A DNA stretch of 64,000 nucleotides from an uncultured Acidimicrobiales bacterium (GTDB lineage: Bacteria > Actinomycetota > Acidimicrobiia > Acidimicrobiales > SHLQ01). The stretch is taken from assembly GCA_937922235.1 (NCBI GenBank), contig CAKZVC010000021.1, positions 1 through 64,000 of the forward strand, in the 5' to 3' direction. The stretch's first letter is position 1. The number at the start of each line of letters is the position of its first letter. Under the pieces are notes generated by a model. That model was given only the letters and a program-made list of their open reading frames with translations, did no database searches and had not been told where the DNA came from. The position numbers and the translations under genes are program-made. Below, piece after piece: positions 36,335 through 45,672 of this stretch.

Positions 36335-37840
36335 ATGACCGAGAACGACAAGCACTCAACCCACCCGACACGAGCCGCAGCTGGCGGGCTTCTCCTGTGG
36401 GTTCTCTGGGTTGCTGTTCTGTCGCCTGCCCGAACACCGGCCGTCACCATGTTCGCCCCATTCGTCATCGTCCCGCTCGGGCTAGCCATCGCAGCGCGAG
36501 GCCACACCGGGCCACGCTCGCTGCTTCTTGGGAAGCTCGCGGTTCGGGCCCCGCTGCTCGCAATCAGCTCAGCGATGAGCTTCCGTTTCGATACCGGCCC
36601 CCTGGCAGCGACCATGACGCTCCCCTGGCTCGGGTTCACCACCGCGCTTGCGCTCATCGGCATCGCCCGGCTCATGTCTCGGCGAACGCTCAACACCCCC
36701 GGCATCGGTGTTGACGCTGGACTGATCTTCATCGTCGTCGGCGCGGCGTTTCTCACCCTCAGCCGAGCTGGACTGCGACCACTCGGCTTTAGCGATCGGA
36801 TCATCGAGCTCACCGCATCACACTTTCACTTCGCTGGCTTCGCGCTGCCGATCATCGCTGGAGCGGTTTCGCTACGACTTGGCCGAGGCCCACTCGTGCC
36901 TGCGGCAATCATCATCGGCATTCCGTTCACCGCAATGGGAATTACGTTCGCCGGCCGGACCGAATGGATCGCCGCAACGTTCATGGCCCTCGCTGGGCTG
37001 GCTGCCGCAGGCACTGTTCTCCAGCTCGCACCGAAGGCGACGGGCCGAGCACGCATTGCCCTCACCATCGCCGGCCTCGCACTGATCGGCGGCATGGCTC
37101 TTGCCTTGGGATGGTCGTGGTCGGCCCACTATGGGTGGGAGTACCTCGACCTTGATGGCATGGTCGCAACCCACGGAGTGCTCAATGGGTTTGGCTTTGC
37201 CCTTCTTGGCCTTGTCGGGCTGAACGCCATGCCTGACGTCGCTGCACCCGACCAACACCGGGTGTGCATCCACCTCGGCCGACCAAGTGAACAGCACCTT
37301 GCGAAGCTCCGGGGCGAAGCGCTCGAACACGATCCAACCAACCCAGCCGGACTACTCTACCGACCACTACCGGATGGCTTCGAAACAAAGGTCTGGCGAC
37401 GCCCCATCGAACACGGCGACTTCAAACAGGCCAGCAACGCAATCCGGGCTTGGGCCGGGCATCGCCACGCAGGAATCGCCCGCTTCCCCGACATGCCCCC
37501 GCTCGAGCTGGGCGAAACCCTCGCTCTCACAATTCCCGTCGGCCCGATCAGCGTGAGCGCCACAGCCCAAGTCGTTGAGCTCATCGACGAGCTCGACCGA
37601 TTCGGGTTTGCCTACTCAACACTCCCCCATCACCCCGAGGACGGCGAAGAGTCATTTGTCGTTACCCGACACCCGAACGGCGATCTCGAGATGATCGTCA
37701 CCGCTGTGTGGCGGGGCGCCGCAGTAGCAAATCATGTGCTTCCTCCGCTCACCCGGTTTCTCCAGAACCAGGCGATTGGGCGATACCTCGACGGGACGGC
37801 GGAGTTCACTAACGACAACGATCTACAGTTGCAGGCGTGA
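36335..37840 (+). CDS. YndJ-like membrane protein fused to DUF1990
   Basis: A 501-residue two-part protein. Residues about 15-300 form some nine membrane helices with ASHFHFAGFALPIIAGAV and THGVLNGFGFALLGLVGL, the conserved His-containing helices of YndJ-like proteins. Residues about 310-490 are a DUF1990 domain (GLLYRPLPDGFETKVWRRPIEHG, then FGFAYSTLPHHPEDGEESF), which is often found next to YndJ. Function is unknown. A merR-type gene is divergent, and its operator is in the 59-bp gap. The stop overlaps the rfbC-like start (GTGA), so the two are coupled. Confidence 0.82.
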   Translation: MTENDKHSTHPTRAAAGGLLLWVLWVAVLSPARTPAVTMFAPFVIVPLGLAIAARGHTGPRSLLLGKLAVRAPLLAISSAMSFRFDTGPLAATMTLPWLGFTTALALIGIARLMSRRTLNTPGIGVDAGLIFIVVGAAFLTLSRAGLRPLGFSDRIIELTASHFHFAGFALPIIAGAVSLRLGRGPLVPAAIIIGIPFTAMGITFAGRTEWIAATFMALAGLAAAGTVLQLAPKATGRARIALTIAGLALIGGMALALGWSWSAHYGWEYLDLDGMVATHGVLNGFGFALLGLVGLNAMPDVAAPDQHRVCIHLGRPSEQHLAKLRGEALEHDPTNPAGLLYRPLPDGFETKVWRRPIEHGDFKQASNAIRAWAGHRHAGIARFPDMPPLELGETLALTIPVGPISVSATAQVVELIDELDRFGFAYSTLPHHPEDGEESFVVTRHPNGDLEMIVTAVWRGAAVANHVLPPLTRFLQNQAIGRYLDGTAEFTNDNDLQLQA

Positions 37841-38418: not shown

Positions 38419-39183
38419 GTGCGAAGCGGAGGACAAGACAACCAACTACCGCGTTGGATTCTTCTCACAATTGACGCGGCGCTGTTTGGGAATCGCGACG
38501 AGGTCGAGGCGGCAGAGCATCGACGGCGATGGGCTGGGCATTTCAGTGACTTGCGCAATGACTCGAGCACCAACACTCTCGACCTGACCGTCGAGGTGAT
38601 TCTCTCAGCGCTCTCGCACGCCTGGTGGCGAATCACCGCTGGCCCAGCAACGACCGTCGCTCCGGGGCTACTTGTTTCGCTTATCGGATCCATATCCATA
38701 GCGTTCGTGTTTTCGCCATCGTACGAAATCACTAGTACGACTACCGCCGGGGGCGTGTTCAGCACAATCTCAGGCCTGCTCATAATGGCGGAGGCCCGAA
38801 CACGGCCCCGCTCGCTCCCTACACGGATCCTCTGGGCGTTGGTTGTGCTCATCCTGACGGCTACGGGTCTCGACTACTGGTTCAACCCCGTCGTTCCGAG
38901 CGACGCGATTGCCAGCATCGGGCTCGCAATACTGACGCTATCTGTCGCTCCCAATCTGCTGATTCAACGACGACGTACAGCGTGGCGACGTTGGGCCCTT
39001 ATGGCAGTTGGCTTCGTGGTACTCGGTCTTAGCAATCTCTTTGGCACACGCGAGTTCACCGACCCCGACGCCGTACAAGTGGCTACGTTGCTATTCGCAA
39101 TGGAGCTCGCCGCCGGCCTCGTGCTCATGCGTTGGGCACTGAGTCGCCGTAGCGACGTTCAGGTCGAAGCTGCCCACGGGTGA
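38419..39183 (+). CDS. Unrecognised membrane protein, tandem paralogue 1 of 3
   Basis: A 254-residue protein of a family I cannot name. A soluble N-terminus carries ALFGNRDEVEAAEHRRRWAG, then SHAWWRITAGPATTVAPGLL, which leads into the first of about six membrane helices. It ends LVLMRWALSRR. Two homologues follow head-to-tail. The GTG at 38419 is chosen over an upstream TTG because it puts exactly 21 residues before the conserved LFG, as in both paralogues, and sits 6 nt after a TANNNT box. A PadR-type regulator follows the array, so a regulated membrane sensor or stress system is possible. Confidence 0.75.
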   Translation: MRSGGQDNQLPRWILLTIDAALFGNRDEVEAAEHRRRWAGHFSDLRNDSSTNTLDLTVEVILSALSHAWWRITAGPATTVAPGLLVSLIGSISIAFVFSPSYEITSTTTAGGVFSTISGLLIMAEARTRPRSLPTRILWALVVLILTATGLDYWFNPVVPSDAIASIGLAILTLSVAPNLLIQRRRTAWRRWALMAVGFVVLGLSNLFGTREFTDPDAVQVATLLFAMELAAGLVLMRWALSRRSDVQVEAAHG

Positions 39184-39214
39184 TTGCTGCATTGCCGGCA
39201 TGTATCAATCGAGC

Positions 39215-39220
39215 TAGGTT
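39215..39220 (+). promoter_or_regulatory. -10 box of membrane paralogue 2 (leaderless)
   Basis: TAGGTT ends 6 nt before the GTG at 39227. The surrounding 23 bp recur (18 of 23 identical) at 40873-40895, beyond the third paralogue. Confidence 0.55.
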
Positions 39221-39226
39221 CCGGTC

Positions 39227-39994
39227 GTGATTTCCGAGGCGACGGACCCCGATACTCCCGCTTGGGTTCGATACACGGTGCGGGCATCGCTGGTTGGTGA
39301 ACCGAATCGCGCTCTTGCCGAAGGTCAAACGCTGAGGTTGGAACAGCATTTCGGCGAAATGAGCCGTGATCCTGCTGTTACGAATTTCGAGTTGGCGATC
39401 GAAGTCGTTCGTTCGTTCGCAACGCACATGGCTTGGCGCGGAATCGCCGGCCCGCCTACGACGGTCGGACCAGGGATACTGAGCATCGTCTGCGGCGTCG
39501 GCGGCCTCGTCCTGGCGCTCAGCCCCTTCTACGACCTCGTGAGCGCTGCATCGGGATCGGGCGTTTTTGCCATCCTCTCCGGGGCACTATTGATCAACGA
39601 CTCGAGAAGCGGGCCCTCTCGTTCGCTGCCTGTGCGAATGCTCTGGGCTGCTTGCACTCTCGGCCTCATTGCCACAGCGGCTGACATGGCGACTCAACCA
39701 AAGGTTCCAAGCGATCGCATAGCGAGTGTCGGCTTCCTTCTGATCGCGTTCGCTATCTCAACTCAAGTAGCGAAGCGCGTGCAGTCGAATACCACCTGGA
39801 AACGGTGGCTTATTGTCGGCATCGGGGTCATGACAGTCGGGGTAAGCAACTTTCTCAGCCTGGCCGAACTCCCAGATGAGCAAGCAATTCGGGTTTCGAC
39901 TGTGTTGTTCGTTATGGAGAGCGCAGCAGGTCTTGTTCTCATTCGCTGGGCCCTCAGTCGGCGCATCTCCAGGCCGACGAACGAGTTCGCCTAA
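39227..39994 (+). CDS. Unrecognised membrane protein, tandem paralogue 2 of 3
   Basis: A 255-residue homologue of its neighbours. It shares the N-terminal SLVGEPNRALAEGQTLRLEQHFGEMSRDP region, the AWRGIAGPPTTVGPGIL entry to the first helix, the DSRSGPSRSLPVRMLWA cytosolic loop and the closing LVLIRWALSRR. About six membrane helices. The start GTG has no Shine-Dalgarno sequence but a TAGGTT box 6 nt upstream. The 43-bp spacer to paralogue 1 carries its own promoter, so the copies can be expressed separately. Confidence 0.75.
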   Translation: MISEATDPDTPAWVRYTVRASLVGEPNRALAEGQTLRLEQHFGEMSRDPAVTNFELAIEVVRSFATHMAWRGIAGPPTTVGPGILSIVCGVGGLVLALSPFYDLVSAASGSGVFAILSGALLINDSRSGPSRSLPVRMLWAACTLGLIATAADMATQPKVPSDRIASVGFLLIAFAISTQVAKRVQSNTTWKRWLIVGIGVMTVGVSNFLSLAELPDEQAIRVSTVLFVMESAAGLVLIRWALSRRISRPTNEFA

Positions 39995-40061
39995 CGGCGA
40001 CTAAACCAACGACTGGCCGGGCACAAGCGAAGGTGACGATTACTTGCGCATATCGACGCAC

Positions 40062-40067
40062 TATTGT
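40062..40067 (+). promoter_or_regulatory. -10 box of membrane paralogue 3 (near-leaderless)
   Basis: TATTGT ends 8 nt before the GTG at 40076. There is no ribosome site. Confidence 0.45.
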
Positions 40068-40075
40068 TACCTGCC

Positions 40076-40849
40076 GTGAAGAGGGCGTATCAGAATTGGG
40101 GCAAACCAGACCTGGCTGACGCCCTCATAAGCGCAAGCCTATTCGGAGCCCCTGATCGCGAAGCCGCGCAGCGCAACCAAGACCGCCTCCACCATCACTT
40201 CGCAGAGATGGCCTCTGATCCATCAGTGAGTCCGGCACGCTACACCTGGGCAGCCTGCTCCTCGGCTGCGTCCCACGTTCTCTGGAGGGTCACGTCGGGC
40301 CCGTCAACTACTGCAGCTCCAGGAATCTTGATCGGCTCGTTCGGGTTGATTGCAATCCTTCTCGCAGCAACGCCCACCTATTCGATTCACGACCCAGCAG
40401 CTAGCTCAGGAGTAATCGCCATCATTGGTGGAGTGCTCGTCTTGGCCGAGGCTCGACGCGCTGACCGTTCCCCACTTACTCGATCCCTTTGGGCACTCGT
40501 CGTTGCGACCTTGACGTGGACCGCGGTGGGATACCTAACAAGGCCACAATCCCCAGGGGACAGCGCGACTGGGGTCGGCTCGCTCATAATCGCACTGGGA
40601 TTACTTCCCCATGCGTTGCAAGCCCTGCGCACCAGCATCACGTGGAGACGATGGGTGGTCGTGAATCTCGGTCTTGCGGTTATTGCGGTCGCCAACCTCT
40701 ACGACGCAATGTGGGTTGACGACGAAGTGGCCTCCAAGGTGTTCTTTCTTCTCTTCGTCCTCGAGTCAGCAACCGTTGTAGCACTGATGCGATGGGCCTT
40801 GAGTCGCCGACGGGCAGCAAGCAGCGCAACCGAACCGGCAGCGGCCTGA
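40076..40849 (+). CDS. Unrecognised membrane protein, tandem paralogue 3 of 3
   Basis: A 257-residue third copy. SLFGAPDREAAQRNQDRLHHHFAEMASDPS, SHVLWRVTSGPSTTAAPGIL (continuing into helix 1), the RSPLTRSLWALVVATLTW loop-helix and ALMRWALSRRRAA align with the other two. Charged loop RADR/RTRPR/RSGPSR residues before the same Ser-Leu-Pro/Thr-Arg pattern are conserved in all copies. I prefer the GTG at 40076 to the TTG at 40064 because of the common 21-residue lead. Function is unknown. Confidence 0.75.
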   Translation: MKRAYQNWGKPDLADALISASLFGAPDREAAQRNQDRLHHHFAEMASDPSVSPARYTWAACSSAASHVLWRVTSGPSTTAAPGILIGSFGLIAILLAATPTYSIHDPAASSGVIAIIGGVLVLAEARRADRSPLTRSLWALVVATLTWTAVGYLTRPQSPGDSATGVGSLIIALGLLPHALQALRTSITWRRWVVVNLGLAVIAVANLYDAMWVDDEVASKVFFLLFVLESATVVALMRWALSRRRAASSATEPAAA

Positions 40850-40981
40850 CGCACCTTTGCACACTTCTGCTAATCGAGATAGGGTCCTGCCGTCGGTGAG
40901 TCGGGCACCGTCGCCAACTCCGTCGACCTGATGAAGAAATCCCTCAAATGGGGCAGCAATTCTTAAGCACAGATCAGGTAC

Positions 40982-40991
40982 TTACCGGTAA
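40982..40991. promoter_or_regulatory. Palindrome TTACCGGTAA upstream of the PadR-like gene
   Basis: A 10-bp perfect palindrome lies 75 nt upstream of the likely padR start in a 216-bp non-coding gap. It may be an autoregulatory site. The same gap holds a near-copy of the paralogue promoter at 40873-40895. Confidence 0.4.
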
Positions 40992-41065
40992 CATCGAACT
41001 AGCCGCACATCGTGGCAATTCACCTGCAACCGACAACGCATCGGAAGCGAAGTGAGGAAATTCTG

Positions 41066-41398
41066 TTGAGACGTAAAGATGGCACTGCACTTGTAAAGAA
41101 CGAAGAACTCGTTCTTTCTGCAGCACTACACCTTCACCGTGATGGTGAAACCCAATACCACGGCTACCGGCTGAATGGGTTTTTGGATGAGCACGATCGC
41201 AAACTTGTTGCATCGACGCTCTACCGAATCCTTCACCGGCTTGAAGAACGTGAGTTCATGACTTCGCACTGGGAACAAGCCCCAGGTGGCACCCAGTGGC
41301 GTTGCGTCTTCACCCTGACGGGCGAAGGTGTCACCGCAGCAGAAGAGGTCGTTGCAAACGCTGTTCCTCACACGATTGCACTAAACCCAGGAATGTAA
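41066..41398 (+). CDS. PadR-like winged-helix transcriptional regulator
   Basis: A 110-residue regulator from a TTG start, or 128 residues from a GTG at 41012. The winged-helix core reads NEELVLSAALHLHRDGETQYHGYRLNGFL, then LVASTLYRILHRLEEREFMTSHWEQ and RCVFTLTGEGVTAAEE, the classic PadR order (HGYxL...YxxLxRLExxG...LTxxG). I favour the TTG because GAGG stands 8 nt before it. PadR proteins often control adjacent membrane proteins, here the three-paralogue array just upstream. Confidence 0.8.
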   Translation: MRRKDGTALVKNEELVLSAALHLHRDGETQYHGYRLNGFLDEHDRKLVASTLYRILHRLEEREFMTSHWEQAPGGTQWRCVFTLTGEGVTAAEEVVANAVPHTIALNPGM

Positions 41399-41804: not shown

Positions 41805-42638
41805 ATGAGCAAGAACAGAACGCCCGCCGACCAGATTCTTGATCTTTCTGAGAACAGGTACAAGCTTTCGACTCTCCGGCACAACGATCTGATCACCCAA
41901 GTGCGCCAGGTTCCCGCCGAAGTGCGTGGCGGGTTGCGAATAGTCGAGCTTGCGGGGTCAGAGTCGGTCAGCGACCTCGGACGGGAACTCGAACAACAGA
42001 TCTTCGACAGCGTCTTTGGCGACACCGTCCCCCACACGCCCGAACTAATGACCTCGGAATACGGACCCTATGAAGACGCCAGTCAGTTTTACGTAGTTCT
42101 CGACGAAGCATCACGTGAGGTGGCCGGAGTCCTTCGCACACTTCAAGGATCGAAGAACAAGACACTGGACGATCTACGCACCGCTCGGCTGATCACCAGT
42201 GACAAAGGTCAACATCCGCTCTTCGATCGTGAAACAACGTGGGATCTGGGAACCGTCGCCGTTTCTCCAGCATCCCAGTCAGGTGGGCGTCGATCGCTTG
42301 TGTCGATTGCCCTCTACCGGGCGTTGTTCTCCGGCCTTGATCACGCCGAGGCAGTGCACTGGACTGCGATTCTCGATGTCGGAGTACTTCCGATCTTCGA
42401 TGAGCTTGGTGTCCCCTACAGCCGAATTGAGGACATAGCGGATATGAACTACCTCGGGTCAAACGCACGGGCGTGTTTCGGTCGAGTAGGCGACATTCGC
42501 GACGCGATGATGAGTCGGTCCAGGAACGCCGATCACGAAACGCGCACAACTATTACTGCCATTCTGAATGGGTCCCCCATGGTCCCTGAGCTAGCAAACC
42601 TGGGCAGGAGGACACACATCCTGCAAAGTTCAGCGTAA
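41805..42638 (+). CDS. GNAT-fold acyltransferase, FeeM/autoinducer-synthase-like
   Basis: A 277-residue protein resembling N-acyl amino acid synthases (FeeM) and, more distantly, acyl-homoserine-lactone synthases. The core is QFYVVLDEASREVAGVLRTLQ, then TTWDLGTVAVSP, an RRSLVSIALYRALF helix, and AVHWTAILDVGVLPIFDELGVPYSRI. This last strand-helix is where these families place the acyl pocket. It would join a fatty acyl chain to an amino compound. The ATG at 41805 has GGAG 6 nt upstream. A cyclic-di-GMP gene follows 52 nt later, so a signalling role is plausible. Call is by pattern only. Confidence 0.6.
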   Translation: MSKNRTPADQILDLSENRYKLSTLRHNDLITQVRQVPAEVRGGLRIVELAGSESVSDLGRELEQQIFDSVFGDTVPHTPELMTSEYGPYEDASQFYVVLDEASREVAGVLRTLQGSKNKTLDDLRTARLITSDKGQHPLFDRETTWDLGTVAVSPASQSGGRRSLVSIALYRALFSGLDHAEAVHWTAILDVGVLPIFDELGVPYSRIEDIADMNYLGSNARACFGRVGDIRDAMMSRSRNADHETRTTITAILNGSPMVPELANLGRRTHILQSSA

Positions 42639-42690: not shown

Positions 42691-45672
42691 ATGGGGTCGC
42701 TGAGTAGTTCCGGCAAACTTGTAGCAATTGGACTCTCCATGTCCGCGCTCGCTCTTGTAGCACCGCGCGAGCTGTCAGACGGTATCGTCCTGCTCTGGTC
42801 GAGTGTCTGTTCGTTTCTGCTCATCCGCGCATCTCGTCGCATGAACACTGAGGCGTCCCGTTCATTCCTTCTGCTCGGCGCGGCCGCCTTCATCATGCTT
42901 GCGGGAATTGTTGTCCGATCCATTCACGGAAATGCCGTCGGAGTCGAACAACCCCTTCCATCGCCCGCCGACCTACTGCACCTTCCGGCATATCTCATGT
43001 TCCTGTTCATCGCTCTTCAGATCCGTCGAGCACGGTCTAGGGGCAGAGACATCGATGCGTGGCTCGATTCGATCTCCTTTACGCTTTCAATCTGGGCAGT
43101 ACTTTGGGGACTGTTTCTTGGAGACTTCGTGCTCAACGCCGAAGATCCGGCGCTGACCGTTGGGCTGCATGTTAGCTACAACGCCCTCATTTTCGGGATG
43201 CTCGCAGTAGTACTGAGAATCGGTGTGACCCCCGGACCGCGATCGAAATCGTATTACCTTCTCGGCGCCGGATGCAGCGCGTTCTTCGTTGCCGATATCT
43301 ATGCGACTTGGGCAGCGACAGCGTCGCAGACTGCCTTCGTGACGATCGCTCTCTCTCCGATGGTCTACGGATTTTGTGCTGCGTCGGCCACTCATCCAAC
43401 CGCCCCCAACCTGCTCACACCCGATTTGAAGGCTGAGACTGAATCGACAAATTACCGGACCGCGTACGTTCTATTCGCCCTGGTTGCGCCAGCGATCGTG
43501 GCCGTGGCCGCGGCTGGTGCAAGCGGGATTACTCAGGCAACGGCACTAATCGGCTCAATTGTGGCCGCAGTCCTCGTGTCGATACGGGTCTGGCGACTTC
43601 TTCGGTCCGAAGACATTGCGCGCCAAAAGGAGCGTCGACTCGGGGTGGAGCTAGGAGAACTTGCACGCCTCGATTCGGTAGAAGACATCCGGGCCGCTCT
43701 TCCTCGGGCTTCCAGGAGAATTCTTGAAGACCACTCTGCCCGGCTTTCGGGCAGCAACTCCTCAGCCGGCTCTTCCATTACCCAGCTGGCTTTGCCTACC
43801 CCGCTGCAGGCCGAAGGTCGGGTTCTCACTATCGAACCAGCGCTCACCGACGACCACGACAAGAGACTGCTCGATTCCCTCTGCCGCGATGCGGGACACA
43901 TCGCCAGCACGATTAACGCCCGAAAAGAGATCGAGAAGCAACGCCTAGCGACCGAAGCGAACCGCCTTATTGCAACCAATGAGCGAAAGTTCAGGGCCCT
44001 CGTTCAGAACGCAAGTGACATGGTCATCGTCATAGACCCGCTCACAGATGGTGCGGTCACATACATCTCCGAAGCGTGCGAACGAGTACTTGGCTATCCG
44101 TCGGAGGAGTTCGTCGGCCGCGATCTCGAATGGGTGACTCACGAGATGGACTGGGAGTTCGCTCGCGAGTACATGATGGCCACGCTCACCGGGACCGAGT
44201 CGCACTACAAACATGAGGTTCGTGGTCTCCACAGTGACGGATCCATTCGCCTCCTCGAATGCCTCATGACCGATATGTCTGACATCGATGGTGTCGATGG
44301 TGTGGTCATCAACATTTCTGACGTCACCGAGAAGCGCGCGCTCGAGCGCCATCTGAGAGACGCTGAAACCACCGATCCGCTTACGTTGCTACTGAACCGA
44401 ACAGCGTTCATCCGTGAGGTTGATGTCTCGATTCGTCGAGCGTCGGTAAGCGAAACATCTGTCGCTCTCGCAATCATCAACATCGACGATTTCCGTTTGA
44501 TCAATGAGGGCTACGGCACCGCAACTGCGGATGCTCTGCTTATCGAGCTCGCACATCGTGTTCGCCAGGCTGTTCGCATCGACGATATTGTCGCCCGCCT
44601 CAATGGCGACGAGTTCGGCATCCTCATGCCAGCCGGCTACAGCTCACACGAGGCCGAAGCGGTCGTTGAGCGAGTGCTCCTCGAGCTGGCCGATCCCGTA
44701 GCTGTAAGCGGTCGAATGATCGCACTCCGCGCAACCGCAGGTCTGGTATTCGACGAGCGGGGCCAGAGTACGGGCCTGCGCATGCTTCAAGATGCTGACA
44801 CTGCGCTCGATGCGGCCAAGCAGACGCAGCGTGGCGGCCTGGTGCGATTCGAAGAAGCCATGGGCGAAGAAGTCTCCGAACGCGTCGAGCTGCGCAACCT
44901 CCTGCGGACCGCCATCGAAGAAGACGGTCTACGACTTGCGTATCAACCGATCGTCAATATGGAGACCGGCAAGATCGTCTCACTCGAAGCCTTGTCGCGC
45001 TGGCACGACGACGTCCGCGGCGACATCAGTCCAAGCACGTTCATCCCGATTGCTGAATCCACCGGGTTGATCTCGAAGTTGGGCGAATGGGCCTTGCGTA
45101 CGGCCTGTCAAGACATGGTCATGTGGAGCAAGCAAGGACTGTCCGACTTCACGGTGAGCGTGAATATGTCGGGCCATCAGCTCCGTGAAGAGAATGTCAT
45201 TGCAACAGTGAAGCGGATCCTGGATGACACGAAGGTCGACCCAACACGAGTCACCATCGAAATCACCGAATCCGTACTAATCGATGACACCGACTTCATC
45301 GCAGAACGAATTCGGGCATTGCGTGAGCTTGGTCTTCGCCTCTCGATCGATGACTTCGGTACGGGCTACTCCTCACTCAGCTACCTGCGTCGCTACGAGT
45401 TCGATGTACTCAAGATCGACCGCAGCTTTGTGATTCCACTGGCCAGCGACGAAAACAAGCGCGAGCGCGAGATCGTAAACGCGATGATCAAGCTCGCCCA
45501 GGCGCTCGGCGCAAAAACCGTTGCTGAGGGCATCGAAGAGAGCGAAGAGTACGCAGTCCTTCGCACCCTCGGCTGCGATCACGCCCAAGGATTCTTGTTC
45601 CACTACCCGCTCGAGACGAGCGAGGTGGGTGACGTGCTTCGGGCCCGCCCGATCGACGTCGCAGCCGCCTAG
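42691..45672 (+). CDS. Membrane PAS-GGDEF-EAL protein (cyclic-di-GMP turnover)
   Basis: A 993-residue sensor. An N-terminal block of about eight to nine membrane helices (residues 1-310) is followed by a linker, a PAS domain (about 430-555, NERKFRALVQNASDMVIVID), a GGDEF domain and an EAL domain. The diguanylate site reads NGDEF at about 638-642, so the first Gly is lost and cyclase activity is doubtful; an RIDD I-site stands just before it. The EAL domain looks intact: EALSRW near 766, DDFGTGYSS, KIDRSF, KTVAEGIE and QGFLF. Net function is probably c-di-GMP hydrolysis, tuned by the PAS domain. Likely co-expressed with the FeeM-like gene. Confidence 0.92.
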   Translation: MGSLSSSGKLVAIGLSMSALALVAPRELSDGIVLLWSSVCSFLLIRASRRMNTEASRSFLLLGAAAFIMLAGIVVRSIHGNAVGVEQPLPSPADLLHLPAYLMFLFIALQIRRARSRGRDIDAWLDSISFTLSIWAVLWGLFLGDFVLNAEDPALTVGLHVSYNALIFGMLAVVLRIGVTPGPRSKSYYLLGAGCSAFFVADIYATWAATASQTAFVTIALSPMVYGFCAASATHPTAPNLLTPDLKAETESTNYRTAYVLFALVAPAIVAVAAAGASGITQATALIGSIVAAVLVSIRVWRLLRSEDIARQKERRLGVELGELARLDSVEDIRAALPRASRRILEDHSARLSGSNSSAGSSITQLALPTPLQAEGRVLTIEPALTDDHDKRLLDSLCRDAGHIASTINARKEIEKQRLATEANRLIATNERKFRALVQNASDMVIVIDPLTDGAVTYISEACERVLGYPSEEFVGRDLEWVTHEMDWEFAREYMMATLTGTESHYKHEVRGLHSDGSIRLLECLMTDMSDIDGVDGVVINISDVTEKRALERHLRDAETTDPLTLLLNRTAFIREVDVSIRRASVSETSVALAIINIDDFRLINEGYGTATADALLIELAHRVRQAVRIDDIVARLNGDEFGILMPAGYSSHEAEAVVERVLLELADPVAVSGRMIALRATAGLVFDERGQSTGLRMLQDADTALDAAKQTQRGGLVRFEEAMGEEVSERVELRNLLRTAIEEDGLRLAYQPIVNMETGKIVSLEALSRWHDDVRGDISPSTFIPIAESTGLISKLGEWALRTACQDMVMWSKQGLSDFTVSVNMSGHQLREENVIATVKRILDDTKVDPTRVTIEITESVLIDDTDFIAERIRALRELGLRLSIDDFGTGYSSLSYLRRYEFDVLKIDRSFVIPLASDENKREREIVNAMIKLAQALGAKTVAEGIEESEEYAVLRTLGCDHAQGFLFHYPLETSEVGDVLRARPIDVAAA

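Follow-up and report, generated by a model that had tools for sequence, protein, structure and literature searches.

Three tandem membrane paralogs beside a PadR-type regulator gene in an uncultured Acidimicrobiales bacterium, compared with the HAAS-PadR dyad

Background

What kind of system is formed by three neighboring genes for related membrane proteins and the PadR-type regulator gene that follows them, and does any known family account for it? The question is raised by a locus in a 64,000-nucleotide stretch of DNA from an uncultured Acidimicrobiales bacterium; here, "window" denotes that whole stretch.

The closest known kind to the window set is the published HAAS-PadR dyad. In the accessible text of Ravi et al. 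2024 (PMC11237479), HAAS is described as a domain of three helices, the third of which is kinked at a GxP motif; it is N-terminal to varied transmembrane (TM) domains, among them uncharacterised 6TM, 4TM and 2TM proteins, and always lies beside a standalone PadR gene. On the basis of gene neighborhoods and domain analysis, the same text proposes the dyad as an alternative to two-component systems, and it likewise presents as a proposal that the HAAS domain binds PadR and passes on a signal. The model is repeated in the accessible text of PMC12419801.

The locus

The locus contains the following genes, in which the membrane copies come first and the PadR gene last, with gaps of 43, 81 and 162 bases:

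38419..39183, + strand: membrane paralog 1, 254 aa, GTG start, intact ORF, 39% identity to paralog 2
39227..39994, + strand: membrane paralog 2, 255 aa, GTG start, intact ORF
40076..40849, + strand: membrane paralog 3, 257 aa, GTG start, intact ORF
41012..41398, + strand: PadR-type transcriptional regulator, 128 aa, GTG start, intact frame, PF03551 at 2.9e-10

The initial annotation described three tandem membrane paralogs, and its coordinates proved correct: the frames are intact, and copy 2, used as a query against its own genome, retrieves copy 1 at 2.9e-52 and copy 3 at 9.6e-44. Pairwise identity among the three copies is 36-39% (copy 1 has 39% and 38% identity to the other two). In the same genome, which is 87.5% complete, no fourth copy is detected at E <= 10 with copy 2 or at E <= 1e-4 with a profile of eight rows; the latter gives a single weak partial match at 0.005 (G000:C88), which was excluded from the counts. 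The PadR-like gene reported after the triplet is also as described, its product scoring 40.4 bits against PF03551, the winged-helix model in Pfam, above the cut-off of 27. Of the motifs said to be shared, the entry to the first membrane helix (GP[APS]TT[VA][AG]PG[LI]L) and RWALSRR are present in all three copies, but the loop RSLPxRxLWA occurs as such in copies 1 and 2 and is altered to RSPLTRSLWA in copy 3.

Two neighboring regions may be recorded here. Positions 36335-37840 of the window encode a single protein combining a YndJ-like domain with DUF1990, and positions 41805-42638 encode a protein whose GNAT-type (Acetyltransf_5) match is sub-threshold, directly before a PAS-GGDEF-EAL protein at 42691-45672.

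In the DNA upstream of the genes, one palindrome was listed:

40982..40991, no strand assigned: TTACCGGTAA palindrome upstream of padR, candidate operator only

This palindrome is absent from the nine other upstream stretches examined, and the chance of its occurring in such a stretch is estimated at about one in ten. A shared operator was sought in the upstream stretches examined, was not found, and was rejected. Each membrane gene is preceded by a TANNNT-like hexamer, whose end is 6 bases from the GTG codon in copies 1 and 2 and 8 bases from it in copy 3, a spacing that would suit leaderless transcripts. A sigma-70 scan found no promoter, 1.2 being expected by chance.

Searches for a known family

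When copies 1-3 are compared with Pfam and NCBIfam, nothing exceeds the curated cut-offs, and the same is true of five relatives (described below) in Pfam and of four in NCBIfam. A profile of eight members finds nothing better than 0.19 among PDB sequences. The four window proteins have no match among the PADLOC defence families, and a defence-family identity was rejected on that basis. Two further candidates were rejected among eight members scanned: DUF998, which is matched by copy 3 only (4.4e-5, under the DUF998 cut-off), and 7TMR-DISM_7TM, which is matched by three members (best 0.0067, also under the cut-off). Viral relatives were rejected as well, since none was found in the viral contigs scanned with copy 2. 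A literature search whose coverage excluded most subscription journals found no paper on the window membrane family. A profile match to a well-characterised family, the finding that the initial annotation named as evidence against its reading, was therefore not obtained above cut-off in the Pfam, NCBIfam, PADLOC or PDB-sequence searches.

Relatives and their distribution

Near-complete members of the family number 11, from eight genomes of the order. A single-sequence search of 98 genomes finds the own genome alone and misses relatives later found by profiles, and the genome contigs scanned with the three-row alignment yield no relatives. The profile of the three window copies led to members in G154, G004 (which belongs to the genus of the window) and G299; the pair in G006, unlike these, was reached through a PadR search. 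The eight-row profile additionally gave G346 and, in a further scan, G411 and G407, as well as G404, where the match is a fragment, a C-terminal half at a contig edge; G404 is excluded from the adjacency counts.

Among 397 genomes of the order, the three-copy profile has matches at E <= 0.1 in at least 46 genomes and under 1e-6 in at least 4, and the eight-row profile has matches passing 0.01 in at least 23 and under 1e-10 in at least 6; weaker matches in both scans were dropped before counting. A scan of 246 sampled genomes of the phylum returns the own genome and at least five weak matches (1.4e-4 to 9.9e-4), all partial and one of them within the order, and relatives outside the order were rejected because these matches are only partial. 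In most genomes, the 397-genome and 246-genome scans scored part of the first-look candidates, so that their hit counts are lower bounds. At the level of bacterial families, the membrane gene is present in 6 of 39 genomes of the family of G154 (E <= 1e-4) and in 3 of 19 genomes of the window's own family.

Members from different genomes are 13-28% identical. In a tree, the window copies form one clade (97/97) and the two G004 copies form another (100/99). Since the two clades are separate, the membrane gene has undergone tandem duplication at least twice; judged from this tree, the window and G004 duplicated it independently.

Association with PadR

Of the eight genomes that carry a near-complete membrane gene, six (own, G004, G006, G154, G299 and G407) have a PadR gene beside it; when the window is set aside, and likewise G006, whose pair came from the PadR search, the count is four of six. 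The initial annotation had named the lack of any PadR association in homologous loci as a second finding that would count against it, and these counts run the other way. In the five relatives with an adjacent PadR, the PadR gene is upstream, and the frames overlap or are 4-13 bases apart. In G004, which has two membrane copies, 13 bases separate the PadR stop from the first of them, and in G154 the distance to the membrane gene is 4 bases. The overlap is 4 bases long in G006 and G299, given the starts assumed, and one base long in G407, which is in neither profile. The window padR product is 49%, 37%, 23% and 43% identical to the adjoining PadRs of G154, G004, G299 and G006, respectively. In G346 and G411, which belong to one genus, no PadR lies beside the membrane gene on its contig, which in G411 has just 548 bases before the gene; both genomes have a close PadR on another contig (2.8e-27 and 1.4e-24).

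Co-occurrence was counted in the bacterial family of G154. At E <= 1e-22, a cut picked at a gap after the list was seen, PadR is present in 6/6 genomes with the membrane gene vs 4/33 without it (Fisher 6.4e-5, or 0.0011 when two genomes in the PadR profile are removed). At the search cut of 1e-10, the counts are 6/6 vs 10/33 (Fisher 0.0025). Close PadRs without an adjoining membrane gene are found in G035, G282, G154:C3, G299:C43 and G346:C498; the subfamily is thus not confined to such pairs, and the tie is one-sided. Two close PadR relatives without a membrane gene (L104 and L107) lie near secreted-looking proteins, one of which has an LPVTG segment near its C-terminus.

The adjacency might be a by-product of gene transfer or chance, with no functional tie between the genes. 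The sporadic distribution within the order (at least 6 of 397 genomes at E <= 1e-10) fits this explanation, as does the low third-position G+C of the locus, 0.48 in padR and 0.62-0.65 in the membrane copies vs 0.84 in the upstream epimerase gene, though the downstream EAL gene has 0.65; positions 38419-41398 are perhaps a late arrival or weakly expressed. However, the adjacency is kept between proteins only 13-28% identical, in two bacterial families, and the frames overlap or nearly touch in five relatives. In view of the adjacency count, we regard chance or transfer as very improbable.

Architecture of the membrane proteins

Judged from predictions, each protein of the family appears to begin with a cytosolic N-terminal domain of three helices, after which come about six membrane helices. 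The AlphaFold models of paralog 1 (mean pLDDT 56) and paralog 3 (pLDDT 64, pTM 0.57) are both of low confidence, and both have three N-terminal helices and then six TM helices. The N-terminal domains are placed as follows:

38452..38637, + strand: predicted cytosolic three-helix domain of paralog 1, residues 12-73 (model helices 12-22, 28-47, 53-73)
40109..40297, + strand: predicted cytosolic three-helix domain of paralog 3, residues 12-74 (model helices 12-21, 28-47, 53-74)

Among the 11 members, hydropathy gives six segments in four (including copies 2 and 3), seven in five, eight in one and five in one; the extra hydrophobic segment is helix 3 of the N-terminal domain in copy 1, G154, G299 and G346. 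In copy 2, the loops read as inside contain 10 K/R residues vs 3 in those read as outside, and the K/R counts of copies 2 and 3 are compatible with both ends inside.

Twenty columns are kept in at least 8 of the 11 members. Half of them map to the first 78 residues of copy 2, a segment making up less than one third of the protein, and the other ten to the TM part. The seven columns kept in at least 10 members are, in copy 2 numbering, G24, H41, H67 and R71 in the N-terminal domain and P130, G200 and R240 in the TM part and its end. The charged or histidine columns kept in at least eight members (H41, D48, H67, R71, R137 and R240) all lie away from the middle of the predicted TM helices.

These features bear on the possibility that the proteins are a small transporter or drug exporter family under PadR control. 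About six TM helices and diverged copies in tandem would suit such a family, and PadR proteins do control exporters, as LadR does mdrL in the accessible text of PMC6624303. Against this, transporter profiles score above cut-off in none of the eight members scanned; the position of the kept charged and histidine columns also counts against it. Foldseek with the models of copies 1 and 3 finds no PDB match at E <= 0.001; its best row is a transporter, PnuC, but at E 0.44. We consider a transporter family distinctly unlikely.

Comparison of the N-terminal domain with other PadR partners

The N-terminal domain was compared with two sets of PadR-coupled proteins. The first, designated the SDLWEQ...PADLxWR family after its SDLWEQ and GxPADLxWR motifs, has the members L109, L111, L112, L143 and L145, of which three were reached through PadR and two by the SDLWEQ profile. 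PadR is immediately upstream in all five; no Pfam match above cut-off is found in three scanned, and no NCBIfam match in two scanned. In the own genome, the family is not found at E <= 1e-5 among the candidates scored. Like the window family, it is PadR-coupled and has an N-terminal domain, alignable over 59 columns (hhalign 68%, P 4.7e-5, with 0/300 column shuffles as good). Unlike the window family, it keeps the GxP of helix 3 in 4/5 members and has a different TM part.

The second set is HAAS. A sample of 59 genomes of the order yields it in 12 at E <= 0.001, with 10 of these over the cut-off; it is not found in the own genome. The 13 HAAS sequences used were taken from the order: 10 above the cut-off, 2 below it and 1 PadR-adjacent look-alike. 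Against all 13, the window N-terminal domain gives a 30-column alignment, located where expected, with P 0.0088 and a probability of 4.6% (0/300 shuffles); against only the 10 rows above the cut-off, P is 0.043 and the probability 1.2% (0/150 shuffles). The SDLWEQ family gives P 0.0083 with 13 rows (1/300 shuffles) and 0.023 with 10 rows. Column shuffling is a lenient control, in which helical periodicity is lost; reversed alignments, which retain periodicity, and unrelated controls (the own TM part and PadR) give nothing in hhalign.

The HAAS model PF22564 matches none of the eight members scanned (all but those of G346, G407 and G411), and NF038403, the NCBIfam model for permease prefix domain 1, matches none of the seven scanned; a positive control protein, L101, is matched by PF22564 at 3.5e-6 and also by NF038403. 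No GxP lies within helix 3 in any of the 11 members; a G-x-P is found between helices 1 and 2 in seven and a GPP or GQP directly after helix 3 in three. Because both the PF22564 match and the helix-3 GxP are lacking, the window family is not filed as HAAS. It also differs from the dyad in having tandem membrane copies beside one PadR, with PadR last. It resembles the dyad, as described in the accessible text of PMC11237479, in having a multi-TM protein with a predicted helical domain at its N-terminus and a standalone PadR beside it. The initial annotation overlooked this resemblance; its reading of the genes as a possible undescribed envelope sensor or transporter set is supported in part, sensor and transporter both being candidate roles.

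These alignments suggest one drifting set of PadR-partner domains comprising the window N-terminal domain, SDLWEQ and HAAS, in which the window domain would be joined firmly to SDLWEQ and only tentatively to HAAS. The existence of families that have an adjacent PadR and lie outside the HAAS profile suggests that present models underestimate how broad this kind is.

Proposed working

The best explanation, which we advance tentatively and at slightly under an even chance, is that the N-terminal three-helix domain of these proteins with about six TM helices acts as the partner of the neighboring PadR, as proposed for HAAS, with which it would share common descent. PadR would act as repressor at the promoters of the membrane genes and of padR itself, and the helical domain would contact PadR. 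The TM part would sense a lipophilic compound or an altered membrane, and the stimulus would alter the contact between the N-terminal domain and PadR and hence repression; three membrane copies would serve one PadR. The window family would then be, at best, a variant working like the HAAS-PadR dyad and not a proven member of it. Counted in favor of this partner reading are the adjacency and co-occurrence with PadR, the profile similarity of the N-terminal domain to that of the SDLWEQ family, and the share of kept columns in that domain. Counted against it are the position of the window PadR, last instead of first, and the 162 bases before it, as well as the missing PF22564 match and helix-3 GxP, the two genomes without an adjoining PadR, the close PadRs that stand alone, the negative operator and sigma-70 results, and the low-confidence models with no PDB match. 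Our confidence was lowered because the kept columns are evenly split between the two parts of the protein and because the similarity to HAAS shrinks without the doubtful rows.

Alternatively, the membrane proteins may be effectors protecting the membrane against a compound, and PadR, without contact to them, an ordinary ligand-binding repressor. This is possible but on the unlikely side. A parallel is the BC4206-BC4207 pair of B. cereus (accessible text of PMC2774856), which like the window set combines PadR with an uncharacterised multi-TM protein and answers membrane attack: enterocin AS-48 induces the pair, and BC4207 increases resistance. BC4207 differs in having 4 TM helices and in coming from a Firmicute, and it is set beside the window family by description only. 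Similarly, Listeria LltR represses its own operon, which contains a DUF1700 membrane protein, lmo0600 (accessible text of PMC6624303). Both parallels support envelope responses for PadR-membrane pairs generally, not for the window set specifically. The resemblance of the N-terminal domain to that of another PadR-coupled family and its over-representation among the kept columns speak against pure effectors, yet both are compatible with them all the same.

A stronger version of the partner reading, which seems unlikely, is a one-to-many unit, in which a PadR-partner domain distinct from HAAS, or far drifted beyond it, is carried by several tandem-duplicated, diverged membrane proteins that feed one PadR or are driven by it. 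If true, one regulator with several inputs would stand in for a two-component system. Loci where one PadR is accompanied by two or three diverged membrane copies are natural experiments on which of the two proteins, regulator or membrane protein, sets specificity.

Other PadR-membrane pairs in the order

Elsewhere in the order, membrane genes of other unnamed families also follow PadR genes, those of the SDLWEQ family among them. A further unnamed family paired with PadR, the EWxAE...GAPRLA family (L120, L121 and L122), gives P 0.049 against HAAS with 13 rows (1/300 shuffles) and 0.038 with 10 rows; it was rejected as kin of the window family, 80/300 shuffles being as good. It forms a second PadR-membrane pair in the own genome, at G000:C6:18000-23000 (L120, 1479-2644, minus strand). 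Pairs of the same family are also present in G009 and G001 of the genus (L121 and L122), and all three were reached through PadR.
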